Source of the DNA: Gordonia effusa NBRC 100432
GTDB lineage: Bacteria; Actinomycetota; Actinomycetes; Mycobacteriales; Mycobacteriaceae
Reading direction: 5' to 3'
Length of the DNA: 64,000 bases
Assembly: GCF_000241305.1 (NCBI RefSeq)
Contig: NZ_BAEH01000106.1
Span: forward strand, 1-64,000
Position numbers and translations under genes: made by a program. Positions 5,695 through 36,046 of this stretch are shown here, piece after piece (the first letter of the stretch is position 1; every line of letters starts with the position of its first letter). The notes beneath the pieces were generated by a model, which was not told the DNA's origin, searched no databases, and saw nothing but the letters and a program-made list of their open reading frames with translations.

Positions 5695-5707
5695 CTGTGT
5701 CAGACAG
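5695..5707. promoter_or_regulatory. CTGTCTSAGACAG operator, site 1
   Basis: CTGTGTCAGACAG, 12 of 13 matches to the island's palindrome, 35 bases upstream of the SRPBCC-MOSC operon. Confidence 0.75.
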
Positions 5708-5711
5708 ATTA

Positions 5712-6332
5712 TCAGACCGTGCGGGCGAGCGAGTCCAATCGCGCGATATCTCCGACGTCGCCGGTGTAGTCCAATTCGACGTTGTTTCGTCCGAGTGCGT
5801 GCAGCAGCAGCTCGGAGGGTTCCCCCTGCAGTCGTACCGTCGAGGAACGGAACGGCTTCGCGATGAATCGCAACCCGCCGCGCACGACCACCACCACTCG
5901 CACCGGCGATCGTCGGTAGGTGAACAGGCCAACTGGCAAGAACAGCGATAACCAGCGCTGTTCACCAGCGGTGAGTTGTCGCGGTCGCCACCCCTCCCGC
6001 GCGCGTCGGACGTCTTCGTGGTGAACGAACATCTCCATTCCGTTGACCAACGCCTCGGCCCAGCTCATCGGCGACCACCATGGTGCCCCACCGGCCAGTT
6101 TCGCGAGCATCACGTCCCAGTCCTGGGTTGCGATTCGGTTCTGCACCTTCCTGGTGCGCCCCGCGAATATCGGCAGGAGGATTCCAGCGGCCGAGTCAGG
6201 GCGACGTTCCCGCAGCAGCAGGTGTGCCGCTAAATCGCGCACGGTCCATCCATCGCACATGGTCGGAGCGTCGGGGCCGACCTCCCTCATCGTTGCTACC
6301 AACGCAGCGCGTTCTCTACTTGCGAAGCTCAT
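5712..6332 (-). CDS. TIGR03085-family metal-binding (DinB/MDMPI-like) protein
   Basis: 206 residues. N-terminal DGWTVRDLAAHL carries the metal-ligand His typical of the DinB/mycothiol-dependent maleylpyruvate isomerase fold, and EMFVHHEDVRRA supplies a second His pair; both match the actinobacterial TIGR03085 family. Members are thought to be thiol-dependent (mycothiol) transferases or isomerases, but most are uncharacterised. Operator site 2 (6367-6379) lies 35 bases upstream, suggesting it is regulated with the Mce and FMO genes. It is a single-gene transcript, with site 1 immediately downstream. Confidence 0.8.
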   Translation of the reverse strand: MSFASRERAALVATMREVGPDAPTMCDGWTVRDLAAHLLLRERRPDSAAGILLPIFAGRTRKVQNRIATQDWDVMLAKLAGGAPWWSPMSWAEALVNGMEMFVHHEDVRRAREGWRPRQLTAGEQRWLSLFLPVGLFTYRRSPVRVVVVVRGGLRFIAKPFRSSTVRLQGEPSELLLHALGRNNVELDYTGDVGDIARLDSLARTV

Positions 6333-6366
6333 GCCAACCTTCGTCCTCTCATCGAACAGCGGTGGT

Positions 6367-6379
6367 CTATCTCAGACAG
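6367..6379. promoter_or_regulatory. CTGTCTSAGACAG operator, site 2
   Basis: CTATCTCAGACAG, 12 of 13, 35 bases upstream of the TIGR03085 gene. Confidence 0.75.
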
Positions 6380-6468
6380 TGAGGGTAATGCACGACAAGC
6401 CGTCCCTCTGGAAATCCGCCGATCATCACACACGGAAACTATTTCAGATAACTTCGCCATTTGAAAGC

Positions 6469-6481
6469 CTGTCTCAGTCAG
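6469..6481. promoter_or_regulatory. CTGTCTSAGACAG operator, site 3
   Basis: CTGTCTCAGTCAG, 12 of 13, 110 bases upstream of the DoxX-like gene. A possible -10 (TACTGT, 6489-6494) follows, so the site would lie between -35 and -10. Confidence 0.65.
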
Positions 6482-6590
6482 TGCGTGCTACTGTCGGTTC
6501 ACCGGCGCGGCGAGGAAGACCTAGCCCTTTTAGGCCGGGCCCCTGGTCCCTATCGACCTGGACGAATGCGAAACGAGGTGGGCAAACCCT

Positions 6591-7037
6591 ATGGGTAAGC
6601 GTAAACGGAGGCGGCAGGCTGCGAGCCAGTCCCTCATTGCCGGTAAGACTCCGAAACATCCAGTGGTCATCCACAGCTATCCGCCCGACAGCCTAAAGGC
6701 CAGGTTGTTTGGTCTGGGTCTTGCGAGCACGGGAGCGGCGCATTTCACCGCACCCAAAGCGTTCGACCCGCTGACTGCCAAGGCATTTCCTGTGAAGACC
6801 CGACGCTGGACGTATCGAAACGGTCTGACCGAATTGGCACTAGGGCTGGCCATCACCTCGCGTCACACTCGTCCGTTAGGAACCGTGGGCCTTGCCGCTT
6901 ACACGGCATTTCTCGCCGGCAGGCATAACAAGGCGGCCAACACGCCGCCAACGCCTCCTGCCGTCGAGGTTTCGACGACAGCGCCTGAGACAACATTCAA
7001 CGAGATTGATCAGGAACAGACGGGGGTCGCGACTTAA
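6591..7037 (+). CDS. DoxX-like small membrane protein
   Basis: 148 residues. After a basic N-terminus come two hydrophobic stretches (LFGLGLASTGAAHF near residue 40; LGTVGLAAYTAFLAG near 100) separated by a loop containing FPVKTRRWTYRNGLTE. The layout resembles short DoxX-like membrane proteins of mycobacteria that share the TGAAHF...P..F motif. The C-terminus is Thr/Pro-rich. No enzymatic residues are evident. It is followed without a gap by the methyltransferase (TAA then GTG), and operator site 3 lies upstream. The family call is moderate. Confidence 0.6.
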   Translation: MGKRKRRRQAASQSLIAGKTPKHPVVIHSYPPDSLKARLFGLGLASTGAAHFTAPKAFDPLTAKAFPVKTRRWTYRNGLTELALGLAITSRHTRPLGTVGLAAYTAFLAGRHNKAANTPPTPPAVEVSTTAPETTFNEIDQEQTGVAT

Positions 7038-7682
7038 GTGACTACTACACAACAGCGTGGATTCAACGGGCTCATCACCCGGTTCTTCGACGTAGCCGCA
7101 ATGGCATACGACTTCGGAGCACTGCAACGAGTCATGTATAAACCGCCACACGACGACGTACTGGCTCAGCTTCGTAAGCACGGGGTTGGCAGCGTCGCCG
7201 ACATTGGCTGCGGCACGGGTATCTTCACCACTCGTATCCAGCAGGAACTCGGACTCGACAGCGTGTACGGCATCGATGCCTCGCGAGGCATGCTCGCCCG
7301 AGGCCGTGCGCGCACCGACAAGGTCGACTGGCGCGAAGGCCCAGCCGAAGCGCTACCTCTGCCAGATGCCTCGGTCGACGCGGTGATCACCACTACCGCG
7401 TTCCACTTCTTCGACCAGCCCAAGGCTCTCGCCGAATACAACCGAGTCCTCAAGCCCAACGGCATAATCGCGATCTCCGCGATCAACCCGAAGGGACTGT
7501 TGGCTAAGCCCATGCAAATGGTTACGCTGCTGCCGATAATTCCAGCGCATGCCGCTTCACCAGCACAGATGCGCGACATGATCACAGCCAAAGGCTTCGA
7601 TATTGTCGAGCAGCGGTCGATCAAACGTCCGCTCTACAGCCGCCTCGTGCCCGATGTCTTGACTGTCGCCAGACTTCGGTAA
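7038..7682 (+). CDS. Class I SAM-dependent methyltransferase
   Basis: 214 residues of the Methyltransf_11 type. Motif I (VADIGCGTG) is near residue 51, the acidic ribose ligand follows in YGIDASRG, and a DASVDAVITTTAFHFF post-motif sits near 115. It likely methylates a small hydrophobic molecule. The start is GTG, directly after the stop of the upstream DoxX-like gene (taagtg), so coupling is expected. The C-terminus ends early compared with many family members, but no frameshift is visible. A perfect terminator hairpin lies 18 bases downstream. Confidence 0.85.
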   Translation: MTTTQQRGFNGLITRFFDVAAMAYDFGALQRVMYKPPHDDVLAQLRKHGVGSVADIGCGTGIFTTRIQQELGLDSVYGIDASRGMLARGRARTDKVDWREGPAEALPLPDASVDAVITTTAFHFFDQPKALAEYNRVLKPNGIIAISAINPKGLLAKPMQMVTLLPIIPAHAASPAQMRDMITAKGFDIVEQRSIKRPLYSRLVPDVLTVARLR

Positions 7683-7700
7683 GCACCAGGCAACAAAGAA

Positions 7701-9252: not shown

Positions 9253-9265
9253 CCGTCTGGGACAG
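9253..9265. promoter_or_regulatory. CTGTCTSAGACAG operator, site 4
   Basis: CCGTCTGGGACAG, 11 of 13. It lies 40 bases before site 5 in the CocE promoter. A GGGACA/TATCGG pair with 17 bases between them could be -35/-10. A hairpin with GGCGCGCTT arms lies just before it at 9206-9234. Confidence 0.55.
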
Positions 9266-9304: not shown

Positions 9305-9317
9305 CTGTCTGAGACAG
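9305..9317. promoter_or_regulatory. CTGTCTSAGACAG operator, site 5 (perfect)
   Basis: CTGTCTGAGACAG, 13 of 13. It overlaps the first in-frame ATG (9302) of the CocE frame, which argues that translation begins further down at 9371. Confidence 0.85.
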
Positions 9318-9370: not shown

Positions 9371-11305
9371 ATGACCCAACCGGAGTCACCACCGGCCGAT
9401 ACGCAAGCAAATGTCTCGCCGACCACGCGGTTCGACATCGGTCCGCGGCAGTACCCGCACCGGCACGTGGACCGCGGAGCGGCGATCCGTCTCAGCGACG
9501 GAACCGTACTATCCGCCGACATCACCCGACCGGCAACCGCGCGCGGCAAGCCAGTAGAAGGCCCTCTTCCCACGGTCGTGACATTCACCCCGTACAACAA
9601 GATGGCCATCTCACGAGGCGCCCCGCTGTTCGATCTCGCCGACCGAGTAGGTCCGCTGGTCAGCCGCGTTATCGGGCCTACCACCACCGGTCGCGCGGGG
9701 CCACGCGAGTTGATCAGAGCGCTCGGCGGCGGCGGTACCGACGTATTGCGGGCGAGCCAAACCCTGGTCTCGCGCGGCTACGCCTACGTCATGATCGACG
9801 TGCGTGGCACCGGATCGTCGACGGGCATCATGGAGATGTTCAGCGAGCGCGAGCAGCAGGACTCGATCGAGGCGCTTGAGTGGGTTCGCAATCAGCCGTG
9901 GTGTAACGGTGACCTCGCGCTATCCGGAATCTCCTACAGCGCGATCGTTGCGCTGCAAGCCGCTGGCAACCAGCCGGAGGGATTGAAGGCGGTGTTTGCG
10001 GTTGAGGGGTCCGCAGACGTCGCCAAGGATTGGATCCAGACCGGCGGCGCGCAATCGGTGTTCACTATCGGCTGGCTCGCGGTCGTCAACTTCGCGAAGT
10101 GGGCACCGTCGATCCCCGCTCTGTTGCGAGCCGGAGTCGCCAGCAAGTTCATCGGGGATCGGTTCCGCAGTCCGTTGACGATGCTCGGCACCATCCTGGG
10201 CATGGCGGTGAAAGAAGATCACATCGAGAGCTTCTACAACGCCGACGCGGAGAAGCGGCCACCGAAGATCGAGGACATCAAAGCCGCCACCTGGATTCAC
10301 GGCGGTTGGCACGACATCTTCGCACGATCGAACACCGAGATGTTCGAGCGGCTCAGCCTCGCTAAGGGCCAAAAGCAGCTGGTCATCGACGATGCGTACC
10401 ACCTGAACCCAGGTGCGGGCTTCGGTACCGACGATCATCCGCAGCGGCTCAACGAGCTTCAGTGCGCATTCTTCGATCGCTGGCTTCAGCACCAGGAGAA
10501 CGGCATCGATTCGTACGGTCCGGTCACACTTCGCGAGCTCGGCACCGGAGATTGGCTGACCCAGTCGGCATTCCCACACCCACAGGCGCAAGTCGAACGT
10601 TGGTATCTCTCCGGGGAGTCCAGCGGCGCAGCTCGCCACGCTGCCATCGACGGATCGCTCGGACCTGCGAAGACACCCGGAGCAGTTCAGTTCGAGCTTC
10701 CCCGGCGAGGAATCAGCTTCTTTTCCTACGCGACGAACGTGACCGCGATGGGTGCGCTCTCGATGCTGGGTTCGGGGTGGTTCTCCGATAACCGCTCCTC
10801 CGAAGCCAGCTCGGTGTCGTTCACCAGCAAACCGCTGACCAGCGACCTCCAGCTGTCCGGCTATCTCAATTTGCATCTGCGTGTCTTGGCACATGGCACC
10901 GAAGCATTCTGGGCAGTCACCGTGTGTGACGTCGCGCCCGACGGCAGCTCGGCAGTGGTCACCGCCGGTGCCCTGCGCTCGACGCGACGTGCGGTCGACG
11001 AGATCGCGAGCCTGCGTGTCAACGGCCAGCTGGTCCGACCCGAACACCCGCTTACCGAGCTGTCGCTGCTGCCGGTGATTCCGGACGAACCCCACGATCT
11101 GGATATCGAACTCAATGCCACGGCCGCGTTCTTACCCGCCGGCCATCGGTTGCGGGTAGCGGTCACCCGTACCAGCTGGCCGCGCCACCTGCTCGGCCCC
11201 AAGGTGAACAAGTACATCAAGGGCCAGGCGATCGTGCTCGATCCAGAACATCCAAGCTGGCTCAGCTTCCACGCTGTCCCAGAAACCGGAGAGAAGGTCT
11301 CGTGA
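9371..11305 (+). CDS. CocE/NonD-family alpha/beta hydrolase
   Basis: 644-residue serine hydrolase of the CocE / X-Pro dipeptidyl-peptidase (S15) class, which cleaves esters or amides. Seen: VRGTGSSTG near residue 145, the nucleophile motif GISYSA (Ser about 188; the family norm is GxSYxG, so the last Gly is Ala here), HGGWHD near 300, and a C-terminal jelly-roll-like domain with LRVAVTRTSWPRH. The start at 9371 is chosen because the upstream ATG (9302) lies inside operator site 5 and aaggagagg precedes 9371. It heads a five-gene operon with three SDRs and a Ddn-like protein; its stop overlaps the next start by four bases. Confidence 0.88.
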   Translation: MTQPESPPADTQANVSPTTRFDIGPRQYPHRHVDRGAAIRLSDGTVLSADITRPATARGKPVEGPLPTVVTFTPYNKMAISRGAPLFDLADRVGPLVSRVIGPTTTGRAGPRELIRALGGGGTDVLRASQTLVSRGYAYVMIDVRGTGSSTGIMEMFSEREQQDSIEALEWVRNQPWCNGDLALSGISYSAIVALQAAGNQPEGLKAVFAVEGSADVAKDWIQTGGAQSVFTIGWLAVVNFAKWAPSIPALLRAGVASKFIGDRFRSPLTMLGTILGMAVKEDHIESFYNADAEKRPPKIEDIKAATWIHGGWHDIFARSNTEMFERLSLAKGQKQLVIDDAYHLNPGAGFGTDDHPQRLNELQCAFFDRWLQHQENGIDSYGPVTLRELGTGDWLTQSAFPHPQAQVERWYLSGESSGAARHAAIDGSLGPAKTPGAVQFELPRRGISFFSYATNVTAMGALSMLGSGWFSDNRSSEASSVSFTSKPLTSDLQLSGYLNLHLRVLAHGTEAFWAVTVCDVAPDGSSAVVTAGALRSTRRAVDEIASLRVNGQLVRPEHPLTELSLLPVIPDEPHDLDIELNATAAFLPAGHRLRVAVTRTSWPRHLLGPKVNKYIKGQAIVLDPEHPSWLSFHAVPETGEKVS

Positions 11306-12210
11306 AGACAGCGATAGTTACCGGTGCCGCATCGGGCATCGGCATGGGTTATGCGACCGTCCTGGCCGAGCGTGGCTTCTACGTCCTCGTCACCGACATC
11401 GATCAGATCGGTGCCGAAAGAGTAGCCGCGGAACTCAACGGCCGTGGCGGGTCACTCGTGGAAGCGCGCAAACTCGACGTCACCGACGCCGCCGCGGTCG
11501 CCAAGGTGGTCAACGACGTCAAACGTGAGCACGGCCGACTCGACATGATCTTCAACAACGCGGGCATCGGAATCGGTGGTCCGACCGAAGAACTCGAGGT
11601 CGCGCACTGGCAAAAGGCTGGCGACGTGATGATCATGGGCGTCGCCTACGGCGTGGACGCCGCGTATCGAATCATGGTCGAGCAGGGCTTTGGTCATATC
11701 GTCAACACCGCGTCGATGGCCGGCATGGTGCCGCTGGCATTCATGGCGCCGTACAACATGGCGAAACACGCCGTCGTCGGCATGAGCCTTTCGCTTCGTG
11801 GTGAAGCAGCCGCACACGGCGTCAAAGTCACCTGTGTATGCCCTATTGCGGTGAACACCAATATCGTCCGGAACCTCAACTCCGGACTTGGCGAAACCGA
11901 CGAGATAAACATCGCGCGCAAGGGATACGACCTGGTTGAGCCTCTCTCCAAGTTCGTTCCCGAGTTCATCATCGCAAGTCCGGTCGGCCACGCCCGCGCG
12001 GTCCTCAAGGGCTGCGATCGAAACCGGGCGCTCGTGATTAAGCCGTGGTTCGGCCGGCAAGCGTGGTGGATGCAACGAGCATTCCCCCTCCTCACGGTGC
12101 GGGTTAGTTCGATTTACACGCGGCTCGCGATTCTTTTACGCAAACCCGCGGTCAACCTTGGGAAAGCGGTACTTCGCGTCCCAGACCAAGAAAAGGAGAT
12201 CGCTCAGTGA
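11302..12210 (+). CDS. Short-chain dehydrogenase/reductase (SDR 1)
   Basis: 302-residue classical SDR, an NAD(P)-dependent alcohol/ketone oxidoreductase. Seen: TGAASGIG cofactor motif at residue 7, NNAG near 90, the catalytic Ser in NTASMAG and YNMAK (Tyr/Lys) near 153-157. It has a C-terminal extension of about 50 residues beyond a minimal SDR, hydrophobic and basic, which may associate with membranes. The GTG start overlaps the CocE stop (GTGA), and its own stop overlaps the next gene by four bases. It shares the operator-controlled promoter at 9253-9317. Confidence 0.9.
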   Translation: MKTAIVTGAASGIGMGYATVLAERGFYVLVTDIDQIGAERVAAELNGRGGSLVEARKLDVTDAAAVAKVVNDVKREHGRLDMIFNNAGIGIGGPTEELEVAHWQKAGDVMIMGVAYGVDAAYRIMVEQGFGHIVNTASMAGMVPLAFMAPYNMAKHAVVGMSLSLRGEAAAHGVKVTCVCPIAVNTNIVRNLNSGLGETDEINIARKGYDLVEPLSKFVPEFIIASPVGHARAVLKGCDRNRALVIKPWFGRQAWWMQRAFPLLTVRVSSIYTRLAILLRKPAVNLGKAVLRVPDQEKEIAQ

Positions 12211-12662
12211 GCGTAATTTCGACAGTATGGGACAACGGTCATCGAATTGGAGCTCAGCTCCTTAATATCGTTACCGGTCCACTATTCCGGTTTGGCCAAA
12301 AGATCGGGTACACCACCACATTGCATGTCAAGTGGGTTGAGTTATACACAATCGGCCGTAAGACCGGACTTCGCCGGAAATCGATCATGCCGAGCGTTTT
12401 GCACACTAACGACCGGTTTGTGCTCGTACCTACCTATGGCGGCCACACGAAGTCGCCGGGCTGGGTGCACAACATCAAGGCGAAGCCCGAGATCGAGGTG
12501 GCCATGGACGGGAAAATCGTTCCGATGCGCGGCCACATCGCTACCGATCAAGAGCGCGAAGAAATCTGGACCAAATTAGTAATCCGCAGCCTGGGCATCT
12601 ATGCCGTACTCCAGGCAATTACCAATCGCCACGTGCAACTAGTCATCCTGGAAAGGATCTAA
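12207..12662 (+). CDS. F420-type nitroreductase-family (Ddn-like) oxidoreductase
   Basis: 151 residues of the deazaflavin (F420)-dependent nitroreductase family (PF04075-like). Seen: TIGRKTGLRRKSIMPS (the TxGRKSG.PR pattern), VPTYGGHTKSPGWVHN (ASxGG...PxWyhNL) and the ANPEVEV-like KAKPEIEVAMDG. Members such as Ddn of M. tuberculosis reduce quinones or enones with F420H2. The start is GTG, overlapping the previous stop by four bases. Placement between SDRs suggests reduction of a double bond or quinone in the same pathway as the ketone/alcohol steps; that is inference. Confidence 0.88.
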   Translation: MSVISTVWDNGHRIGAQLLNIVTGPLFRFGQKIGYTTTLHVKWVELYTIGRKTGLRRKSIMPSVLHTNDRFVLVPTYGGHTKSPGWVHNIKAKPEIEVAMDGKIVPMRGHIATDQEREEIWTKLVIRSLGIYAVLQAITNRHVQLVILERI

Positions 12663-12667
12663 CTCTC

Positions 12668-13627
12668 ATGACAAGCAAAATTCGAAACCCCCGGTTTGTA
12701 ATAATTACCGGCGCGGGCAGCGGGATCGGGCGGGCAACCGCGCTACGGTTCGGCAAAGCAGGGTCCGAGGTTCTCTGTACCGACATCAATGCGGAAACCT
12801 CTGCCGAGACCGCCGCGATGATCATCGCCGCCGGCGGAAAGGCCAGATCAGAACGTCTGGACGTCACCGACGACGACGCGTGGCAAGCTCTAGCGAAGCG
12901 GCTTCGTGATGAGGGTCAACTCATTGAATTACTCGTCAACAACGCTGGTGTTGGCGTGGTGGGCGCTTTCTTGGCGCACTCGAAAGATGACTGGGATCGC
13001 CAGATCAACGTCAACCTCAACGGTGTCGTGAACGGCTGCCGGGCGGTCGCCCCCTTGATGGTGGAGGCCCGGCACGGCCATATCGTCAACATCGCATCAG
13101 TCGCCGCCTACACACCTTTCGGCATGATGCCGTCGTACTGCGTCTCCAAGGCATCGGTTCGCATGTTCAGCGAATGCCTGCGTCTGGAACTCGCGCCGCA
13201 TAACGTCGGCGTGAGCGCGATCTGCCCGGGCGCTGTTGCGACAAATATCGTTAAGAACTCCGAGTTCCACGGCGACGTCGGCATCGAAGATATGGACCAT
13301 AAGAAGGAAGTTGCTGGCGAAGTCGCTGTCAAGTACGGCCAGATCTTCCGCTCGCCGAACCGCATTGCGTGGGCCATTGAGCGTGCCGCACGACGCAACC
13401 AGGCTGTTGTGCCGGTCCGTCCCGAAGCTTGGTTGGGCTATCTCGCGCACCGCGCCTCGCCGACGCTGATGCGCATAGTTATCGGCCAAGCAACACCAGC
13501 ACGTCTGAAGTTCGCCGGCAATCTTGCCGATCGTCTCGTCCTCCGCAAGGCGACGGAAATATTAGGTCCCATCTTCGCTCCCGAGGCCTTTGCCGAAGAG
13601 CCGACCCCAGCCAAGTCAGGAAAGTAG
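12668..13627 (+). CDS. Short-chain dehydrogenase/reductase (SDR 2)
   Basis: 319-residue classical SDR. TGAGSGIGRAT cofactor motif near residue 15, DVTDDDAW, NNAG near 96, IASVAAYTPFG with the catalytic Ser, and YCVSK near 158-162. It closely resembles the next gene (shared DAWQALAK, VNLxGVVNGCRA, MVExxHGxIVNI, FSECLR), so the two look like a tandem duplication that has diverged. The C-terminus again extends past the core fold. It starts five bases after the Ddn-like stop, in the CocE operon. Confidence 0.9.
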   Translation: MTSKIRNPRFVIITGAGSGIGRATALRFGKAGSEVLCTDINAETSAETAAMIIAAGGKARSERLDVTDDDAWQALAKRLRDEGQLIELLVNNAGVGVVGAFLAHSKDDWDRQINVNLNGVVNGCRAVAPLMVEARHGHIVNIASVAAYTPFGMMPSYCVSKASVRMFSECLRLELAPHNVGVSAICPGAVATNIVKNSEFHGDVGIEDMDHKKEVAGEVAVKYGQIFRSPNRIAWAIERAARRNQAVVPVRPEAWLGYLAHRASPTLMRIVIGQATPARLKFAGNLADRLVLRKATEILGPIFAPEAFAEEPTPAKSGK

Positions 13628-13635
13628 GTCTACCC

Positions 13636-23986: not shown

Positions 23987-23989
23987 ACC

Positions 23990-26389: not shown

Positions 26390-26402
26390 GTGTCTGTGAC
26401 AG
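26390..26402. promoter_or_regulatory. CTGTCTSAGACAG operator, site 6 (Mce side)
   Basis: GTGTCTGTGACAG, 11 of 13, 39 bases upstream of the first gene of the Mce operon. Confidence 0.65.
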
Positions 26403-26485: not shown

Positions 26486-26498
26486 CTGGCTGAGACAG
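26486..26498. promoter_or_regulatory. CTGTCTSAGACAG operator, site 7 (MmpL side)
   Basis: CTGGCTGAGACAG, 12 of 13, 37 bases upstream of the lipoprotein-MmpL operon. With site 6 it brackets the divergent promoter region 26352-26534. Confidence 0.75.
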
Positions 26499-27050: not shown

Positions 27051-27072
27051 ATAAGGAGCGGTGACGCGTTAA

Positions 27073-29241
27073 ATGTTCGCCAAGATAGGCCGAAGGGCGT
27101 ACGACTTCCGATTCATCGTAATTGTGGTGTTCGTCCTGGCAATGGGGGGTCTTGGCCTCTACGGCAAAGACTATACGCAGCACCTGAGTCAGGAAGGGTG
27201 GTTCGACGACACAAGTCAATCAGTTGCGGGTTCAGAGCTTACCGACAGCACATTTGGGCGCGATACCGATGCCGACGTTATCGCGCTCTATACCGCACCC
27301 GAGGGTAAGTCGGTCAACGACCCAGAAATAGCCGCACGCGGTAAAGCGCTCTACTCAAGCCTGGTCAAGGACAATCCAACCACCGTCAAGAGATCGGATA
27401 GCTACTGGGACAGCAGTTTCGCAGCGAAACGGTTATCGCATGGCGATAGACAGGTCTACGCCAGCATCGGCCTGCAAGGTGACGGTGGAACCGAAACGCT
27501 GAAGTATTACGATGAAATCAAGGATAAGCTCGCCATTGATGGCCTGCAATTGCAAATCGCGGGCCTAATCCCCGTCGCCGACGCTATGCAGTCGGGAATG
27601 GACGAAGACGTCAAGCGAATGGAAATCATCGCGCTGCCCCTGGTGGCGTTGCTGCTTTTCATCGTCTTCGGCGGTGCAGTGGCAGCCTCCTTGCCTGTGC
27701 TCATTGGTGGGCTCAGCATTCTCGGTTCTACCGGCATCGTGCGTATGATCATGCATTTCACCGACGTGAATGTCTTCGCAAGTTCAGTGATCACGCTAAT
27801 CGGCCTCGGGCTCGCGATCGATTACGGATTGTTTACCGTCAGTCGTTTCAGAGAAGAGATAGCCGAGGGCGCGTCTACCGCGGATGCTGTTCGGGTGACA
27901 GTTGCAACGGCAGGCAGAACCATCGTGTTCTCGGCCACAATTATCGTCGCGTGCCTCGGCGGGTTGCTCATCTTCCCGCAAGGGTTCTTGAAGTCAGTGG
28001 CCTACGGCGCGATCGCTACCGTAGTTCTCGCCGCGATTCTTTCGATCACCGTACTGCCCGCGATTCTCGGAATCCTCGGGGCCAAGGTCGATAGCCTCGG
28101 CTTCAAGTGGCTGCGTAGGACAAAGACGGCAGAAGAGATCGATGCGGGCCTGTGGTCACGTCTGGCCAATTGGTCGATGAAACGTCCAGTACTGGTCGCC
28201 GTGCCGATCATCCTGGTCCTCGCAGGTCTGATCATTCCGTTCTTCAACGTCCAGTTCGGCGGCTTGAGCGAAAAGTACCTCGCACCAGACAATCCGGCGC
28301 GAGTGGCGCAAGAGAAATACGATGCGCTGTTCCCTGGAGAGCGTACCGAGCCGTTGAAGTTGGTCGTGGTGGGAACCAGTGACAATAAGGTCGTCACCGC
28401 GATCCGGCGGGCTGCGAGTTTCGAGCCTGGACACGAGCAAGATCGGCAGCTCCGGACCGGGCTCGCCGCCGAGTTCAAGGTAGCGAAGACACAGCCGGAG
28501 AAAGGCGTGACACTCTTCACCGCGGGGTTGAAGAATCGAGAAGACCCGACCTCGGTTGACGCTGTTCTCAAGGGTCTGCGCAAGCTGGCCCCGCCGGACG
28601 GAGTGCAAATCCTGATCGCTGGAACTCCCGCACTCGAACGCGACAGCATCAACGGCCTCATCGATCGGCTGCCGCTACTGCTCGTAATCCTGGGCGTGGC
28701 ATCGTTCATTCTGATGTTCCTCGCGTTCGGGTCGTTCGTGCTGCCGATCAAGGCAATATTGATCAGCATTCTGAGTTTGACCGCCACGCTGGGCGTGATT
28801 ACGTGGATCTTCTATGACGGACACGGAGCAGATCTCCTCAATTTCACTCCGTCGCCGTTGATGTTCGCGGTGTTGATCATAATCGTGACGATCGTTTTCG
28901 GGCTATCCACCGACTACGAGATATTCCTGATGTCACGAATGGCCGAGAGACGAAGAGCGGGTTATGACACCCCCGAGTGTATTCGGTACGGAATCGCCCA
29001 CACAGGTGGAATCATTACGGCTGCCGCATTGATTCTCATCGTCGTGACCGGTGCGTTCGGTTTGTCCAATATCGTGATGATGAAATACATCGCATATGGA
29101 ATGATCGCCGCATTGATTCTCGATGCCACCATCATCCGAATGATGCTGGTCCCCGCGGTGATGCGAATTCTCGGCGACTGGTGCTGGTGGTCGCCGAAAT
29201 GGGCTAAGAAAGTGTACGCAAAAGTCGGACTCGAGGAGTAG
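27073..29241 (+). CDS. MmpL-family RND lipid transporter
   Basis: 722-residue MMPL transporter with the 1+5 / 1+5 helix layout: TM1 about 15-33, a periplasmic loop to 180, TM2-6 about 185-345, TM7 about 372-392, a second loop to 525, and TM8-12 to the end. The proton-relay pairs lie in GLAIDYGLF and GLSTDYEIF. It has no long cytoplasmic C-terminal tail, unlike MmpL3. It exports lipids or glycolipids driven by protons. Lying divergent from an Mce importer with matching operators, it suggests co-ordinated import and export of envelope lipids. There is no MmpS; a 46-residue membrane peptide follows instead. Confidence 0.92.
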   Translation: MFAKIGRRAYDFRFIVIVVFVLAMGGLGLYGKDYTQHLSQEGWFDDTSQSVAGSELTDSTFGRDTDADVIALYTAPEGKSVNDPEIAARGKALYSSLVKDNPTTVKRSDSYWDSSFAAKRLSHGDRQVYASIGLQGDGGTETLKYYDEIKDKLAIDGLQLQIAGLIPVADAMQSGMDEDVKRMEIIALPLVALLLFIVFGGAVAASLPVLIGGLSILGSTGIVRMIMHFTDVNVFASSVITLIGLGLAIDYGLFTVSRFREEIAEGASTADAVRVTVATAGRTIVFSATIIVACLGGLLIFPQGFLKSVAYGAIATVVLAAILSITVLPAILGILGAKVDSLGFKWLRRTKTAEEIDAGLWSRLANWSMKRPVLVAVPIILVLAGLIIPFFNVQFGGLSEKYLAPDNPARVAQEKYDALFPGERTEPLKLVVVGTSDNKVVTAIRRAASFEPGHEQDRQLRTGLAAEFKVAKTQPEKGVTLFTAGLKNREDPTSVDAVLKGLRKLAPPDGVQILIAGTPALERDSINGLIDRLPLLLVILGVASFILMFLAFGSFVLPIKAILISILSLTATLGVITWIFYDGHGADLLNFTPSPLMFAVLIIIVTIVFGLSTDYEIFLMSRMAERRRAGYDTPECIRYGIAHTGGIITAAALILIVVTGAFGLSNIVMMKYIAYGMIAALILDATIIRMMLVPAVMRILGDWCWWSPKWAKKVYAKVGLEE

Positions 29242-29428: not shown

Positions 29429-30640
29429 ATGCCTACACACGCAATACTTCGGCGATGCTCCATTGTCGCAATCGCAATATCGGTGGCGCTAGTTCATTTC
29501 ACGTCACCGGCCTCCGCCCAGACCCGACCAGATTGGTCGGGTCTGGACGCGAGGAATTATCATGATTCCATTCCGGCCGGCGGCACTTTAATCAAACAAG
29601 TGCCGCTCGACGCCGAGCTGTCACTCCCAGCCGCAAGCGCAGCCTACCGCCTGCTGTACTCCACGAAGAATCAACGCGGGCCCGCGGTCAGCACCGCCGC
29701 GCTGTTCTTACCAAAGGGCGAACCTCCCGCCGGAGGATGGCCGATCATCGCCTGGGCGCACGGCACCGTCGGACTTGGCGACAACTGCACGCCGTCGGCA
29801 CAGCCGGTCAACGAACGCCAGGTCTTCTACTTCTCCCATTGGCTCAAGCGCGGCTACGCGGTCCTCGGCACCGACTACGCCGGCCTGGGCACCCCGGGAC
29901 TAATGAGCTATCTGAACGGCAGGGTCGAAGCGCATAACCTCGTCGACTCCGTCAAAGCATCGCAGCAGATGAACCTGCCACTCTCGCGTAAGTGGGCTTT
30001 GGTCGGTCAGTCACAGGGTGCCGGAGCCGCAATGAACGGTGCCCGATACGCGACTGAATTCGGTCCGGAGCTGGACTATCGAGGCGTCGTCGCAACCGGC
30101 ACGCCGGCGAATGTTGAACTGTTCCTCCTTTTCGGCGCCCCGTTTGTGCCGCCAATCCCGGTCACTAAAGCGTTGACGGCATACCTGATCTACATCATTG
30201 CCGGCTTCCGAGATGCCCGACCAGATCTACGAGTCAACAGCATCCTCAGTCCGCTCGGGCTGCGGCTGGCCGACAAGGCCGAGAAGATGTGCCTGTCCGA
30301 CTTCGAAGACTACTTGGCCGGCAACGGCATCCTGTCCGGGTTTCTGGCCGCCCACAGCCTCGGCTCCCTGTTCAGCTGGCCGGTCATCACCCTTCCGAAC
30401 ATTTACGGGGCGTTGCGTGACTATATGCGGACGCCTGGCGAGGGCTACAACCGTCCGATCTTCCTCGGCCACGGGCTTTTCGATATCGACGTACCTATAA
30501 CTCTGCCAGCGTCGCTGGTCGCCGAACTTACGCTGCACCGACAACCATTCCAACTGCACCTTTACGCCTCAGACCACCGAGGGACGGTCTACCAGGCGGC
30601 CAACGATGCAGCGGTGTTCATGAAGGCGATTATGCGGTAG
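29429..30640 (+). CDS. Secreted lipase (LIP family)
   Basis: 403 residues. Sec signal peptide with hydrophobic core about 11-25 and cleavage after ASA (residue 30). The alpha/beta hydrolase domain has AWAHGTVGL, the nucleophile GQSQG, and FDIDVP and SDHRG for the Asp/His. It is a paralogue of the lipase at 1331-2557 but exported, so it may release fatty acids or alcohols from extracellular esters for the nearby Mce importer. GGGGG lies eight bases before the start. No operator palindrome was found upstream. Confidence 0.88.
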   Translation: MPTHAILRRCSIVAIAISVALVHFTSPASAQTRPDWSGLDARNYHDSIPAGGTLIKQVPLDAELSLPAASAAYRLLYSTKNQRGPAVSTAALFLPKGEPPAGGWPIIAWAHGTVGLGDNCTPSAQPVNERQVFYFSHWLKRGYAVLGTDYAGLGTPGLMSYLNGRVEAHNLVDSVKASQQMNLPLSRKWALVGQSQGAGAAMNGARYATEFGPELDYRGVVATGTPANVELFLLFGAPFVPPIPVTKALTAYLIYIIAGFRDARPDLRVNSILSPLGLRLADKAEKMCLSDFEDYLAGNGILSGFLAAHSLGSLFSWPVITLPNIYGALRDYMRTPGEGYNRPIFLGHGLFDIDVPITLPASLVAELTLHRQPFQLHLYASDHRGTVYQAANDAAVFMKAIMR

Positions 30641-30697
30641 CCGACAGAGTCGCGAGAACGTCTGCACTACGGCTACGCACCAGGCTCTTTAGCACGC

Positions 30698-30732
30698 TAT
30701 AATCCCTTCGAGATACGAAATCTCAAGGGATT
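30698..30732 (+). promoter_or_regulatory. Consensus -10 fused to an inverted repeat before the third AarF gene
   Basis: TATAAT (30698-30703) overlaps the left arm of a 13-bp inverted repeat with a single-C bulge (30701-30714 with 30720-30732, loop acgaa). It could be a repressor site on the promoter or a 5'-leader hairpin. No clear -35 was found. Confidence 0.5.
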
Positions 30733-30751
30733 TAGCGTTAGGAAGTTCCCG

Positions 30752-32119
30752 GTGGTTAAGCACACGCCAGGCCAAAAACAGCTTCGACACGGGAAATACT
30801 CTCGCTCGGCAAAACTCGCGACATTGCCCGCGTCCTACGCGGGGCGCAGACTGGCGGGCGTGGGCCGGGTTGTCCTCGGACGCTCACGCGAGGAAGTGGC
30901 ACGCGACATCGAGATGCGCACCGCTCAACACTTCTTCGACGTACTCGGCGAACTCAAGGGCGGTGCTCTCAAGCTCGCGCAGATCTTGGCAGCGGTGTAC
31001 CCCGCGTTATTCGACGATCTGGGCTCCGACTATCGCGACGCCCTTGATCGACTTCTCGCGTCGGCTCCGCCGATGCTGCCCGGTGCCGTCCACGGGGTGC
31101 TCGCCGGGGACCTCGGCGTTGATTGGCGCGACAATTTCCGCAGTTTCGATGACCGGCGAGCCGCCGCCGCATCTATCGGTCAGGTCCATCACGCGATCTG
31201 GCATGACGGCCGAGAGGTGGCGGTCAAGGTCCAGTACCCCGGTATCCGGGGAGTGATCGAAGACGACCTGACTGCAATTCGACGACTATCCGCCCTGATG
31301 TACGCGGTCTTCCCCAATACCGATCCTGCGGCGATTATCGACGAGTTATCCGCCTGTGTTCGCGAAGAACTCGACTATGCCCGCGAGGCCGAGAACCAGC
31401 GAGCTTTCGCGCACGCTTACCGCGACGACCCGGATTTCCTTGTGCCGCAGGTCGTTGCGCAATACGAGAACACCTTGATAACCGAATGGCTCGACGGGAC
31501 TCCGCTGAATCACACGATTCGGCACAGCACTCAGATCGAACGCGACCGGGTGGGAGTCCAGCTCGTGAGGTTCAGTTTTTCCGGACCTCAGCGGTGCGGC
31601 CTGCTTTACGCAGACCCCCACCCGGCGAACTTCCTGGTGACATCTGACGGGCGCCTCGGCGTCATCGACTTCGGTGCCTGCGCGCGACTGTCGGATGAAA
31701 GCATGGCGATGCTTCACGACTTGTCACTGTTCATCGACGGAACCGACCCGGCAGCACTCGAGTCACGACTCCGCGAATATCGAATCATCCTGTCGGACAC
31801 CGACATTGATGAAATCGCCGATAAACTCAAGACGGTATTCGAGCCACTCGCCAGCGACTCATTCACCTACACGAACGACTGGCTTCGTGGACAGGCCAAA
31901 GTCTTCGCATCGCCTCAATTGGACAATGTCGTCCGACAACTGGCACTGCCACCCGAACTCGCTGTCGGCCTACGCGTCGCGATGGCATGCGCCGGGCTCA
32001 TCTGCCAGTTGAATGCTCATGGGCACTTCCGCGATGAGATCGACCATCTCCTCCCCGGCTTCAACGCGGCTTTCTCAGCACGGACCGCGGTCGAGCCTGA
32101 CCGGGGTCAAGTCAGTTGA
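30752..32119 (+). CDS. AarF/ABC1/UbiB-family kinase-like protein (paralogue 3)
   Basis: 455 residues. AAASIGQVH, VAVKVQYPG, IDFGAC and the catalytic-loop region ADPHPANF are present. The normally invariant KxGQ is KLAQ (residues 74-77), and the DPHPGN Gly is Ala. KxGQ occupies the active site in ABC1 proteins, so this copy may have altered activity. The start is GTG with AGGAAG at good spacing. Its 3' end overlaps the convergent hydrolase by eight bases. It is the only paralogue of the three with a changed KxGQ. Confidence 0.87.
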   Translation: MVKHTPGQKQLRHGKYSRSAKLATLPASYAGRRLAGVGRVVLGRSREEVARDIEMRTAQHFFDVLGELKGGALKLAQILAAVYPALFDDLGSDYRDALDRLLASAPPMLPGAVHGVLAGDLGVDWRDNFRSFDDRRAAAASIGQVHHAIWHDGREVAVKVQYPGIRGVIEDDLTAIRRLSALMYAVFPNTDPAAIIDELSACVREELDYAREAENQRAFAHAYRDDPDFLVPQVVAQYENTLITEWLDGTPLNHTIRHSTQIERDRVGVQLVRFSFSGPQRCGLLYADPHPANFLVTSDGRLGVIDFGACARLSDESMAMLHDLSLFIDGTDPAALESRLREYRIILSDTDIDEIADKLKTVFEPLASDSFTYTNDWLRGQAKVFASPQLDNVVRQLALPPELAVGLRVAMACAGLICQLNAHGHFRDEIDHLLPGFNAAFSARTAVEPDRGQVS

Positions 32120-33188
32120 CGCTGGCCGTGTCACTCTTCTCTGCCGGTTCGTCGTCGAAGTATTCGACGTAATTGGCGCTACGCAGCACCTCTTTGTTGA
32201 ACGCACCGATTTCGCGAACCGCCGCACGCGCGTCGGACAAGATGTCTGACCCCGCCTGATGCACATGGATCGCGCGATCCCAGATCTGGAACTGCATCGG
32301 CGCACCGGCCTCGCCGTAGCGCTTCGCCACCTGCTCGGCATCCGGCAGGAAGACCTCGGTAGATCCGACCTGGATCAGAGCCGGGGGCATACCGGTGCAG
32401 TCGTGGTTCACCGACGACCACATCGGGTCCAACTCGCCATCGATGAGATACCCCTGCCTGCTCAGGAACTCGAACACACTGGCCGGCAGAATCGGGTCCC
32501 GTCGAACATTGGGATGAGCGTTTCGGATCTTCCAGTCGAGGTCGGCCCACGGCGAGATCGAGACGATCCCACCCGGCACTGGCAACCCTTCTTCTTTCGC
32601 GGCCAATGCCACCCGGAATACCAAGCCACCGCCGGCGGAGTCACCGGCGAAAACCACCCGCTTCGGGTCGAACCCAAGGTTCAACAGATGCCGATATGCC
32701 TCAACTCCGTCAGCAAGAGTCTCGACGAAATGATGCGGCAACTGTCGATAGTCGACGTTGAACACCGGCATTTCGCTGGCTTTGCCGATCTTGGCGACGA
32801 GCCGTCGGTGCGTATTCAGTCCGCATGAGGCAAAACCGCCACCGTGGAAGTAAAGAATTGCCGAATCCCGGCGCTCCAGCGGATCTCCCTGCTGCTTATT
32901 CCACACCCACTCAGCCCGGAAGCGCCCGAAATCAGTCAGCCGACGTCGAGTGCCCCGCGGCGGCACGAGGAGGGCGGCTGGCGCGTCGGTCGTGCTCGAG
33001 ATCGCGAATAGCGCTTTGGGAAACAGCCCGTATTTACCCAGTGTGATTCCGGTCTTGGCGAGGAGATCAAGGACCGGAAGTGCGGTCCTCGGACCGAACA
33101 CATTGGCCAACTTGGTAAGAACGCTTGCGCGGTTTACCTCCTCGACCTGCACCGACGACCCGAATACCGCTGTTCCAACCTGCTTCAT
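32112..33188 (-). CDS. HSL-family (LipR-like) alpha/beta hydrolase
   Basis: 358 residues of the hormone-sensitive-lipase family (alpha/beta hydrolase fold-3). HGGGF oxyanion motif at 115-119, nucleophile GDSAGG (Ser184) and a C-terminal AIHVHQAG fitting the catalytic His. It acts on short acyl or acetyl esters, including lactone/ester products of Baeyer-Villiger oxidation. GGAGG lies five bases before the ATG. It is divergent from the FMO with one shared operator (33203-33215). In M. tuberculosis the mymA FMO also neighbours a LipR hydrolase, a comparison from memory. Confidence 0.88.
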   Translation of the reverse strand: MKQVGTAVFGSSVQVEEVNRASVLTKLANVFGPRTALPVLDLLAKTGITLGKYGLFPKALFAISSTTDAPAALLVPPRGTRRRLTDFGRFRAEWVWNKQQGDPLERRDSAILYFHGGGFASCGLNTHRRLVAKIGKASEMPVFNVDYRQLPHHFVETLADGVEAYRHLLNLGFDPKRVVFAGDSAGGGLVFRVALAAKEEGLPVPGGIVSISPWADLDWKIRNAHPNVRRDPILPASVFEFLSRQGYLIDGELDPMWSSVNHDCTGMPPALIQVGSTEVFLPDAEQVAKRYGEAGAPMQFQIWDRAIHVHQAGSDILSDARAAVREIGAFNKEVLRSANYVEYFDDEPAEKSDTASVN

Positions 33189-33202: not shown

Positions 33203-33215
33203 CTGTCTGGGACAG
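33203..33215. promoter_or_regulatory. CTGTCTSAGACAG operator, site 8
   Basis: CTGTCTGGGACAG, 12 of 13, in the 68-base divergent gap between the hydrolase and the FMO. TATAAC (33216-33221) for the FMO abuts the site, and TATACT on the other strand overlaps it, so one site could control both promoters. Confidence 0.8.
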
Positions 33216-33256: not shown

Positions 33257-34918
33257 ATGACAACGACGGTCAACGATAAGAAACGCCCGACCCCGAAGGA
33301 CGCACCAGGTGGCGATCCGCAGGGCCCGGCAGCCCCTGACTATCAGGTGGCCATCATCGGAGCGGGGCCTGGCGGCATCGCTACCGGGGTGAAGCTCAGC
33401 AAAGCGGGGATCAACGACTACGTGATCATCGAGCGATCGGACAACTTCGGCGGTAGCTGGCAGTTGAACCAGTATCCGGGGATCGCGGTCGACATTCCAG
33501 GTGTCGCTTACCAGTTCGGCTTCGCGCGTAAGCATGACTGGTCGCGGCTATTTCCCTTTGGCCCGGAGGTCAAGCAGTACCACCAAGACGTCGCGCGCGA
33601 ATACGGGTTGTATGAGCACGCCATGTTCAACACAGATGTAGAGCGGGAAATCTGGGACGACGCGGGACACTACTGGAAGCTACATACTTCGTCCGGCAAG
33701 GTTGTCACCGCTCGCTTCGTTATCAGCGCGGTTGGCGCGTTCGTCCGGCCCAAGGCTGAGAATATCCCCGGAGTTTCCAAATTCAAGGGAAAGATTCAGC
33801 GCCCGACGAGCTGGGACTACTCGTGGGATCTCACCGGGAAAAAGGTCGCCGTCATCGGTACCGGTGCCAGCGCGGTCCAGATCATTCCGGCCATCGCCAA
33901 AGACGTTGGCAGCCTTTCGGTATTCCAGCGGACCCCCGTGTGGTGCGCACCAATCAAGCCCGACGGTCCGATGCCCAAGGCAGCGCAAGGTGTCTTGAAG
34001 ATTCCAGGCTTGGTCGGGGCCGGTGAAAGCGTGGCGCTCGTCGTCATCGACCTTGCGCTTCGCGCGGCGGTATCGGTACCTCTCGCGATCGTGAAGCCAG
34101 TTCTGACGGCCTTTGACAAGGTAGCGATCAAGGGATACGCCGCATTCCTGAAGTTGTTTATTCGCGACGCTGAGACCGCCAAGAAGCTGACTCCGAATTA
34201 CGGCGTCATCGCCAAGCGTCCGACGATGTCCAACGGATACCTGCAGGCGTTCAACCGCAGCAACGTCTCTTTGATTACCGACCCCATCGAGACGGTCACC
34301 GCCAAAGGCATCAAGACGCGCGATGGCGTCGAGCATGACTTCGACATGATTGTCCTGGCTACCGGCTACGACGTCTTCTCCGATCCCGAGACCTACCTCA
34401 CGGGGTCGATCGTCGGCCGTGAGGGATTCGACCTCGGCGAGTTCTACACCAAGGAGGGGATGCAGGCATACCAGAGCGCGTCGGTGCATGGCATTCCAAA
34501 CCGGTGGATGCTCGTTGGCCCTTACTCGTGGACCGGCAGCGGATGGCACGCATTCGTCGAAATGACGGCCGATCATGCCATTCGTGCGATCACCGAGGCA
34601 AAGCGCCGAGATGCCACGTTGGTCGAAGTTCATCGCGCGGCGGCGGACGCGTACCACAAGAAGATTCTGCACAACAACCGTGCGATCAACTTCTACCTGG
34701 CAGATCTGAACGCGCACGTGCCCACGTACTACCGGAACTCGCACGGTCATAGCACCTACATCCGCCCGTCGGGCTTCTTCGAAGCCAGCCGGGGCAACCG
34801 GAAGTTCCCGTACAGCGATTACAGCTGGGAAAAGGTCCCAGCCAAGGCTGCCGCTCCAAAAGACAGCGGCAAAGCCGCTGGAGCAGCGCCGGCGTTGAGC
34901 CAGGTCAGCGCGAAGTAG
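33257..34918 (+). CDS. Flavin-containing monooxygenase with altered Baeyer-Villiger fingerprint
   Basis: 553-residue FAD/NADPH monooxygenase. FAD motif GAGPGG at 35-40, GGSWQLNQYPG near 65-75, fingerprint region 176-187, NADPH motif GTGASA at 201-206, and ATGYD near 372. In the fingerprint the usual His is Arg (F176-x-G178-xxx-R182-xxx-W186-D187). The C-terminus is Ala/Lys-rich. It is a paralogue of the partial FMO at the window start, which keeps the His. GGAGGG lies six bases before the ATG, and operator site 8 is immediately upstream. Substrate unknown. Confidence 0.92.
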   Translation: MTTTVNDKKRPTPKDAPGGDPQGPAAPDYQVAIIGAGPGGIATGVKLSKAGINDYVIIERSDNFGGSWQLNQYPGIAVDIPGVAYQFGFARKHDWSRLFPFGPEVKQYHQDVAREYGLYEHAMFNTDVEREIWDDAGHYWKLHTSSGKVVTARFVISAVGAFVRPKAENIPGVSKFKGKIQRPTSWDYSWDLTGKKVAVIGTGASAVQIIPAIAKDVGSLSVFQRTPVWCAPIKPDGPMPKAAQGVLKIPGLVGAGESVALVVIDLALRAAVSVPLAIVKPVLTAFDKVAIKGYAAFLKLFIRDAETAKKLTPNYGVIAKRPTMSNGYLQAFNRSNVSLITDPIETVTAKGIKTRDGVEHDFDMIVLATGYDVFSDPETYLTGSIVGREGFDLGEFYTKEGMQAYQSASVHGIPNRWMLVGPYSWTGSGWHAFVEMTADHAIRAITEAKRRDATLVEVHRAAADAYHKKILHNNRAINFYLADLNAHVPTYYRNSHGHSTYIRPSGFFEASRGNRKFPYSDYSWEKVPAKAAAPKDSGKAAGAAPALSQVSAK

Positions 34919-34934
34919 AATTCGTCAAAACCAA

Positions 34935-34964
34935 ACCGCCTCGGTCCTGATGGGCCGAGGCGGT
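34935..34964 (+). terminator. Terminator of the FMO gene
   Basis: A 13-bp stem (34935-34947 with 34952-34964) with one wobble pair, loop tgat, then cttgtgttg. Confidence 0.75.
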
Positions 34965-34999
34965 CTTGTGTTGTGGGCCGCATACGCAGAGAAACAAAA

Positions 35000-35032
35000 C
35001 GCCCGGGAGCATCCTAAGGATGCTCCCGGGCG
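35000..35032 (-). terminator. Terminator of the GntR gene
   Basis: A near-perfect palindrome with 16-base arms (35000-35015 with 35017-35032). On the minus strand it is followed by TTTTGTTT, 23 bases after the regulator's stop. Confidence 0.85.
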
Positions 35033-35054
35033 TCGAAGATGTCTTCCAGACTGG

Positions 35055-35846
35055 TCAAGCAGTCGCGAAGTCGATAGCCACTTCCTCGTCCACCTGCTCG
35101 GCGGGCAGTACGATCTCGTCGAACTTCGACAGGACCCGCTGGTGGTAAAGCCCGAGTAGATCGTCGAACAACGCGAGTTGGGCGTCCGAGGGAGCGCTAC
35201 CGGAATCCCAGACAGCCGCCATCGCACGCCACATGAGTACATGCAGGTCGGGCGACACCGCGAAGTAGGCCGCGACTGCTTCTGGAACAGAAAGTATCGT
35301 CGCGCCGATCGAGTTGAGCGTCGCCCGTTGGAACGCCTGCCCGGTGGTGCCCATGATTCGACGGATCAGAGCGAGTTCCAAGGACAGAATCGCCACGTGG
35401 TCAGGTTCTTCGGCGCGCGCGAGAGCTTCCAGCCGATCAACGTCGTCGTGCAGGTCACCCTGGCGCAGCGACCCCTCGTCGCACATCGCCGTATAAGCCA
35501 GGAACGCGTCGGCGAGAATCTGCCGCTGGCTCTCGACCATCTCCTCGAACATCTCGCTAGCGATCCCCGGCGACGCGGTCACCGACAATTGGAAAAGACG
35601 GCAGTACACTTCCATGCCGCCGTCGACCCGGACATCGCGCACAACAAATCCCTTGGCGCGCTTGGCGTCCACGAAGCCCTGCGATTCCAAACGGCCGAGC
35701 ACGAGTTGTGCCGTTGCGCGGTTGATCTCGAATTCTTCGGCCACTTGCCGAACGGACGGCATGAGCGTCGTTGGCGCATATTCCCCGGTAACTACGCGAC
35801 GCGCCAGCATGTCCGCCACATCTACGACTACAGTGCGAGCGTCCAT
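35055..35846 (-). CDS. GntR/FadR-like transcriptional regulator, candidate controller of the island
   Basis: 263 residues. N-terminal winged helix (about 10-75) with ADMLARRVVTGEYAP, SVRQVAEEFEINRATAQLVLGRLESQGFV, then an all-helical FCD-like effector domain (about 95-240). ATG 35846 (GGAAAGG eight bases upstream) is preferred over ATG 35891, which lies inside operator site 9. GntR/FadR proteins sense acyl-CoAs or carboxylates; Mce1R of M. tuberculosis is of this type. Its promoter carries a site and it lies at the edge of the operator cluster, so autoregulation and control of the island are inferred. Confidence 0.85.
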   Translation of the reverse strand: MDARTVVVDVADMLARRVVTGEYAPTTLMPSVRQVAEEFEINRATAQLVLGRLESQGFVDAKRAKGFVVRDVRVDGGMEVYCRLFQLSVTASPGIASEMFEEMVESQRQILADAFLAYTAMCDEGSLRQGDLHDDVDRLEALARAEEPDHVAILSLELALIRRIMGTTGQAFQRATLNSIGATILSVPEAVAAYFAVSPDLHVLMWRAMAAVWDSGSAPSDAQLALFDDLLGLYHQRVLSKFDEIVLPAEQVDEEVAIDFATA

Positions 35847-35887
35847 TACCACAGCCTTTCCGTAGGTGGTCAATGATCTGGGGTCTT

Positions 35888-35900
35888 GCATCTCAGACAG
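35888..35900. promoter_or_regulatory. CTGTCTSAGACAG operator, site 9 (regulator promoter)
   Basis: GCATCTCAGACAG, 10 of 13: one half-site is intact and the other degenerate. It lies 42 bases upstream of the GntR start, consistent with weak autoregulation. Confidence 0.55.
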
Positions 35901-36010
35901 TACACCCGGTATAGGCAGGCAGCCACTCTAAAACCGAACATTTGCACCAATATGTGGGCAGATTCACTCACGTTTGGAACGCCTGTACCAGCGACAACCG
36001 GCCGGAGAAC

Positions 36011-36046
36011 CTGACTGAGACAGTAGCTGGACGGGTGCCCTATAGT
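36011..36046 (+). promoter_or_regulatory. Operator site 10 with promoter of the DUF1990 gene
   Basis: The operator CTGACTGAGACAG (36011-36023, 12 of 13) covers a possible -35 (GAGACA). TATAGT (36041-36046) follows after an 18-base spacer. The ATG is six bases further, so the mRNA is probably leaderless. Confidence 0.7.

Follow-up and report, generated by a model that had tools for sequence, protein, structure and literature searches.

GntR-type regulators of mce operons are known from Mycobacterium tuberculosis, in which Mce1R and Mce2R play this role. A comparable set of lipid enzymes, namely a Baeyer-Villiger monooxygenase, a lipase and a short-chain dehydrogenase/reductase (SDR), is encoded by the mymA operon, which contains no mce or mmpL genes and is regulated by the AraC-type protein VirS. 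For most Mce importers and MmpL3 paralogues we know of no assigned substrate. The stretch of DNA described here, called the window throughout, comprises the first 64,000 nucleotides of contig NZ_BAEH01000106.1 of Gordonia effusa NBRC 100432 and carries an island in which a 13-letter palindrome, CTGTCTSAGACAG, recurs before lipid genes and before a gntR gene; it is found again before distant monooxygenase genes. We read CTGTCTSAGACAG as the operator of the island GntR, which would repress its targets and its own gene until a predicted lipid-derived ligand releases it, and, judging from sequence, we give this reading a probability of about 0.82.

As with Mce1R and Mce2R, a GntR-type regulator is linked here to an mce operon; by description only, the island regulon differs in adding an MmpL3 paralogue, monooxygenases, hydrolases and SDRs. 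Its enzymes resemble those of mymA, from which it is distinguished by a GntR instead of an AraC-type regulator and by the mce and mmpL genes that mymA lacks. The operators of a single regulator would mark which importer, exporter, monooxygenases and hydrolases act together and so give a concrete pathway to test; the imported lipid should yield, as one of its products, the ligand that releases this GntR, and the clean operator lets the same pathway be predicted in Nocardia and Antrihabitans. Text searches of the open-access literature for the motif strings returned no bacterial operator among the papers listed, and combinations of Mce, GntR, Nocardia and Baeyer-Villiger returned no such regulon in titles and the beginnings of abstracts; within these limits the motif is, as the original prediction had it, previously unnamed.

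Operator-like sites in the lipid island

Ten copies of the palindrome were found exactly where the original prediction had placed them, and the mismatch counts and the spacing of mostly 30-50 bp before start codons that it reported are borne out as well. On the minus strand, CTGTGTCAGACAG (5695..5707, one mismatch) lies 34 bp before the SRPBCC-MOSC gene with TAATCT at the -10 register of that direction, and a second site (6367..6379, one mismatch) lies 34 bp before the TIGR03085 gene. A plus-strand copy at 6469..6481 (one mismatch) stands 109 bp before a gene labelled DoxX-like and a methyltransferase gene; the DoxX-like label (6591-7037) came from the earlier reader and finds no counterpart in any matched Pfam family. 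Two plus-strand sites precede the CocE-SDR genes: a perfect operator at 9305..9317, which has TATGCT at the -10 register and is 53 bp away from 9371, where CocE likely starts, and a second one with two mismatches at 9253..9265. The 210-aa gene heading the yrbE-mce operon is preceded at 38 bp by a minus-strand site with two mismatches (26390..26402), and the WKL lipoprotein-MmpL genes at 36 bp by a plus-strand site with one (26486..26498). Another single-mismatch copy (33203..33215) separates two divergent genes, that of the hydrolase at 14 bp and that of FMO at 41 bp; read towards the hydrolase, it has TATACT at the -10 register. The predicted autoregulatory operator of gntR (35888..35900, minus strand) has three mismatches, retains ACTGTCTGAGA and lies 41 bp before the start, and the last copy (36011..36023, plus strand, one mismatch) lies 29 bp before DUF1990. 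The T following the final G is present in nine of the ten, the exception being 5695, which has A. A further two-mismatch site, absent from the earlier list, is found at 8037-8049 between two convergent genes and is probably due to chance.

These sites are strongly clustered. Positions 5600-36100 hold seven sites that differ from CTGTCTNAGACAG at no more than one position, where 200 dinucleotide shuffles average 0.05 and reach 2 at most, and ten that differ at no more than two, where the shuffles average 0.89 and reach 4. With three mismatches allowed the count rises to 21, against 9.3 (maximum 18) in shuffles, and over the whole window 21 was reached by 4 of 100 shuffles; the three-mismatch class alone is mostly noise. 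Across the whole genome (4.70 Mb, 133 contigs), 12 sites with at most one mismatch compare with 9 for a reversed control, and seven of these 12 fall within 30.3 kb (binomial P 3.6e-13). Genome-wide abundance was dropped as a signal since 12 against 9 is the level of chance; it is clustering and position that carry the signal. Extending the pattern by one base (ACTGTCTSRGACRG, one mismatch allowed) gave 9+14 strand matches against 2+0 in the control. The genome-wide scan that the original prediction had named as a possible refutation shows the motif to be clustered and placed before genes. In the 36-64 kb part, where the original prediction had noticed no site, 36101-64000 indeed holds no copy with at most one mismatch; it holds one with two mismatches, at 40277, and outside the cluster the 137-kb contig contains no other site with two mismatches or fewer. 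Exact palindromes are at chance level in the genus, with 11 against 10 control matches across 59 genomes and 9 against 10 without G. effusa.

An insertion-sequence end, or a repeat of another kind, is an extremely unlikely alternative to an operator as the nature of the palindrome. Shared flanks, as at transposon ends, are indeed seen in all 16 copies fetched from three genomes without this GntR (six of six places in G186, seven of seven in G249 and three of 12 in G209), where GTCAAC or GTCAGT precedes CTGTCTGAGACAG (L264-L279), and the three copies in G034, like the three in G040, also share theirs. Each of the Gordonia island sites has flanks unlike those of the others, which contradicts a repeat for the island, and these sites are degenerate and placed before genes. 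The 13-mer CTGTCTGAGACAG, often after GTCAAC, belongs in genomes without this GntR to a repeated element, probably an insertion-sequence end, and constitutes a trap for motif scans; its repeats also occur in G034 and G040 (L053, L054, L056-L059), and six copies of CTGTCTCGGACAG were found in G232.

The island GntR and the site before its gene

The candidate binder is a GntR regulator of 263 aa (35055..35846, minus strand) with a predicted FadR-like fold, its conserved start, MDARTVV, having been set by alignment. A protein of Gordonia sp. CPCC 205333 is 86% identical, orthologues in Nocardia and Antrihabitans are about 55-62% identical, and the best-scoring match in the 58 other genomes of the genus reaches 31%, so that conservation of the site could not be followed within the genus. 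A single-sequence scan gave no relative; an alignment-based search matched 123 loci, of which the best 80 were used. All 80 of these orthologue loci, from Nocardia and Antrihabitans, have a match with no more than three mismatches a short distance before gntR: within variable DNA, the end of ACTGTCTGGGACGT, or of a sequence close to it, is 22-62 bp from the gene. When these loci are aligned on the site, T at -4, A at -3, CTGTCT and GACG are identical in all 80, the remaining three site columns agree in 79, 76 and 79, and most flanking columns are variable. The neighbour of gntR changes, the divergent gene being an ABC1 kinase in 45 of the 80 loci and an amino-acid permease in L216; since the site stays while the neighbour changes, it belongs to gntR. 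Conservation before orthologous genes, which the original prediction had called for, is thus found, and its guess that the window GntR is the factor receives strong support from an operator that follows gntR in every one of these loci.

A second sample of 151 family genomes, 13 of which carry this GntR at 15 loci, partly overlaps the first, with G. effusa and at least Antrihabitans YC2-6 common to both. At 14 of these 15 loci a half-palindrome, ACTGTCTSRGAC, lies no further than 60 bp from gntR and has one mismatch or none; G180, another member of the genus group of Antrihabitans, has it although its GntR is only 48% identical. Upstream of 29 distant GntR relatives from the genus, the closest match to the half-palindrome has two mismatches, at one locus, and the closest control match three, so that none comes within one mismatch. 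Several Nocardia, such as N. acidivorans (L097/L131) and N. jejuensis (L123/L168), possess two GntR paralogues with the same operator and different neighbours, and one such paralogue is the one that adjoins the amino-acid permease in L216.

The protein itself is similar to the FadR subfamily in combining a winged helix with an all-helical C-terminal domain and in the lipid-related nature of its targets. The N-terminal winged helix of the GntR family is recognized by PF00392 (45.8 bits, cut-off 27), whereas the all-helical domain of about 150-170 residues that characterizes the subfamily is seen in the predicted model only (pLDDT 86; helices from residues 72 to 255). The top Foldseek match of this model is the E. 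coli FadR-DNA complex 1hw1 (E 4e-7, TM to target 0.68), and the FadR entries among the matches listed have TM values of 0.38 to 0.72 at 12-17% identity. Beyond this low identity, the island GntR differs from the subfamily in that no curated FadR/FCD C-terminal domain is matched in Pfam, which returned only helix-turn-helix families, and NCBIfam FadR (TIGR02812) gives 21.7 bits, below its cut-off of 249. With the site kept before its gene in all 80 loci, the window's own GntR is very likely the protein that binds the palindromes.

Binding of the palindrome by another factor, for instance a TetR protein encoded elsewhere, with gntR merely one of its targets, appears quite unlikely. Its appeal lies in the operator: according to PMC4494728, FadR-type sites have 2-3 nt and HutC-type sites 4 nt between GT and AC, and the GT-N5-AC spacing seen here is unlike both; moreover, TetR genes adjoin two sites, on contig C119 of the Gordonia genome and at L209 in Nocardia. 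Against it stand the retention of the site at gntR in all 80 loci while neighbours change and the fact that no other regulator gene was seen to be common to them, although no systematic search was made.

Beyond what had been noticed originally, the operators often overlap a -10-like element. The sequence TAnnCT overlaps the operator start in 80/80 orthologous gntR promoters, and a GTGCAG-like block is found 17 bp further upstream (each base in 52-73 of 80). TA at -4 is present in 8/17 Gordonia site directions and in 16/34 directions of Nocardia and Antrihabitans; with the site C76:421 (see below) scored towards its monooxygenase the Gordonia figure is 7/17, with a binomial probability of 4e-5 in which sites are taken as independent and perfect palindromes counted in both directions. 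The likely mode is repression, because an operator-bound protein would hide both the -10 region and the probable start of transcription. The GntR would thus bind the palindromes and repress all target genes together with its own, and a predicted lipid-derived ligand, sensed by the all-helical FadR-like C-terminal domain, would release it. An acyl-CoA or similar lipid is a plausible ligand because the model matches FadR structures best. That GntR binds these sites but activates the genes seems rather unlikely: some sites do lie well upstream (6469, at 109 bp, and 9253), but most are found 14-54 bp before start codons, often overlapping TAnnCT, where an activator would be expected to block the polymerase.

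Distant monooxygenase genes and the regulon in relatives

With repression by the island GntR as the preferred reading, the regulon extends, further than was originally described, to distant promoters of Baeyer-Villiger-type monooxygenase genes. Four of the five Gordonia sites outside the island cluster adjoin such genes. Two on contig C75 precede, by 46 and 54 bp, a pair of monooxygenase genes whose products share 84% identity; that on C99 has the conserved part of a monooxygenase on one side and that of a divergently encoded carboxylesterase on the other, the longest open frames of both overlapping it; and C76:421 is a perfect site, separated by 43 bp from a monooxygenase gene that is truncated by the start of the contig. 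The fifth, on C119, is located between the TetR gene and a dienelactone-hydrolase-type gene. The window itself begins with the C-terminal part of a Baeyer-Villiger-type gene (1..1204, plus strand) that is cut by the contig start and whose N-terminal part is apparently C76:1-377. The C76 piece and the piece at the start of C28 match consecutive stretches of a single C99 protein, at 82% and 79% identity, so the two unjoined pieces probably belong to one gene, and C76:421 would then be the first operator of the island. On first impression C76:421 had been taken for a dnaX operator, until the monooxygenase start was found on the other side; the island probably continues on C76, adjoining dnaX.

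The genome contains 23 monooxygenase-like entries, corresponding to about 22 genes. A site with no or one mismatch accompanies five of them, namely the two on C75, that on C99, FMO2 and the C76/C28 gene, and the best match at the other 17 has at least four; this bimodal distribution argues strongly for function as what defines the regulon. Baeyer-Villiger monooxygenases carry the fingerprint FxGxxxHxxxW, which is present in both C75 genes and in the contig-start gene (FEGKFMHSSQW) and, with Y for F, in the C99 protein (YEGKVMHSAQW). FMO2 (33257-34918) lacks the fingerprint His (FKGKIQRPTSWD), though the protein resembles Baeyer-Villiger monooxygenases.

Sites are also enriched around gntR in relatives. 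In the flanks of the 80 loci (1.59 Mb, some loci being from the same species), 35 sites have one mismatch or none, against 5 in the control, and nine relatives' genomes contain 80 strand-counted sites against 14, a comparison biased upwards as the genomes were chosen for having sites. Antrihabitans sp. YC2-6 keeps the island, with perfect sites between the FMO and SDR genes, after gntR and at the hydrolase, a two-mismatch site at gntR and a one-mismatch site between WKL-MmpL and yrbE-mce; its seven strand-counted matches to CTGTCTSRGACRK are confined to a single contig, where they fall between 143 and 163 kb, against 1+1 in the controls. Nocardia inohanensis (G066) and Nocardia sp. RYN_116 (G063) retain gntR, ABC1, SDR, MmpL, WKL and yrbE-mce, with sites at several, not all, of the promoters: in the former a perfect site precedes yrbEA (76% identical), lying between the leading gene and yrbEA where the Gordonia site lies before the leading gene, and in the latter a site precedes the hydrolase. 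Across 59 Nocardia genomes, upstream sites with one mismatch or none were seen at 6 of 28 FMO2-like loci, and for the reversed control at 0/28. In hand-picked Nocardia regions, a site stands beside a homologue of a window gene in 11 of 20 (L200, L204, L206-L208, L211-L216); L210 is ambiguous, and eight have no such homologue beside the site.

Several observations weigh against the reading of CTGTCTSAGACAG as a repressor site of this GntR. The five nucleotides between GT and AC (CTGT-CTSAG-ACAG) set the operator apart from the FadR and HutC types described in PMC4494728. The gntR site in Gordonia, with its three mismatches, is the weakest of the ten and reads TGTACT in place of TAnnCT; TA at -4 is absent from 9/17 Gordonia directions (10/17 with C76:421 scored towards the monooxygenase), and in the 34 directions of relatives TA is also seen just after the site (13), at +15 (9) and at -2 (8), so the register is not unique. 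The one exception in the second sample, G135 (L283), has a 53% identical GntR orthologue without a site within 300 bp; its gntR lies downstream of an ABC1 kinase gene on the same strand. RYN_116 has no site with at most one mismatch between WKL and yrbEA, 22 of the 28 FMO2-like Nocardia loci have none, and in many Nocardia the recognizable regulon is gntR alone. Lastly, the strict pattern CTGTCTSRGACAG is missing from 7 of the 13 gntR-bearing genomes, two more having only CTGTCTCGGACAG, while 25 of the 138 genomes without this GntR contain at least one strict site; from these counts, the regulator is not tracked by the mere occurrence of the pattern, and much of the regulon is lineage-specific.

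Island genes and the putative pathway

The minus strand encodes a predicted lipid importer (17723..26351) made up of six Mce proteins, two YrbE permeases and the leading 210-aa gene product, with MlaE above cut-off in both YrbE and MlaD in all six Mce proteins. On the plus strand, a WKL-family lipoprotein and a 722-aa MmpL3 paralogue form a predicted exporter (26535..29241), followed by genes for a secretory-lipase-family protein and an ABC1 kinase downstream of MmpL (29429..32119). The CocE/S15 hydrolase, three SDRs and an F420H2-dependent quinone reductase-like protein are encoded at 9371..14574 (plus strand), an Abhydrolase_3-type hydrolase at 32112..33188 (minus strand), and FMO2, an FMO/Baeyer-Villiger-type monooxygenase whose nearest solved structure is cyclohexanone monooxygenase, at 33257..34918 (plus strand). 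SRPBCC proteins, several hydrolases and ABC1 kinases also belong to the target set.

By their families, these proteins would fit a route of lipid import, alcohol oxidation yielding a ketone, conversion of the ketone to an ester by insertion of oxygen, and cleavage of that ester; the route may, as the original prediction supposed, serve one lipid class. The Mce proteins would bring the lipid in, the SDRs would make a ketone from it, the Baeyer-Villiger monooxygenases would convert the ketone to an ester, the hydrolases would cleave the ester, and the MmpL3 paralogue may export the product or a conjugate.

The island appears to have been acquired. Its G+C content is 54-61% in 4-kb windows, against 60-64% in the rest of the contig, and its MmpL is 72% identical to the Antrihabitans protein against 57% to the MmpL3-like protein of its own genome; together with the 31% best-scoring GntR match in the genus, these values suggest a Nocardia/Antrihabitans-type source. 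A broader proposal is more tentative, and we hold it at somewhat less than even odds: the island GntR may represent a new class, FadR-like in its fold and binding a wide operator of GT-N5-AC form, and may be the master switch of a portable lipid-ketone pathway that ties together the Mce importer, MmpL3 paralogue, ABC1 kinases, Baeyer-Villiger monooxygenases and hydrolases, includes the monooxygenase loci outside the island, and entered Gordonia from such a source.

The island MmpL (27073-29241) aligns with positions 1-753 of the 992-position NCBIfam model of MmpL3, the trehalose monomycolate exporter, at 857 bits; it is without the C-terminal part, and its score lies below the equivalog cut-off of 1400. 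This paralogue adjoins the mce operon, and a separate, longer MmpL3-like gene (open frame of 1030 aa) is located on contig C116. Three ABC1 (UbiB-like) kinases are encoded in the island, at 3116-4474, 14750-16198 and 30752-32119.

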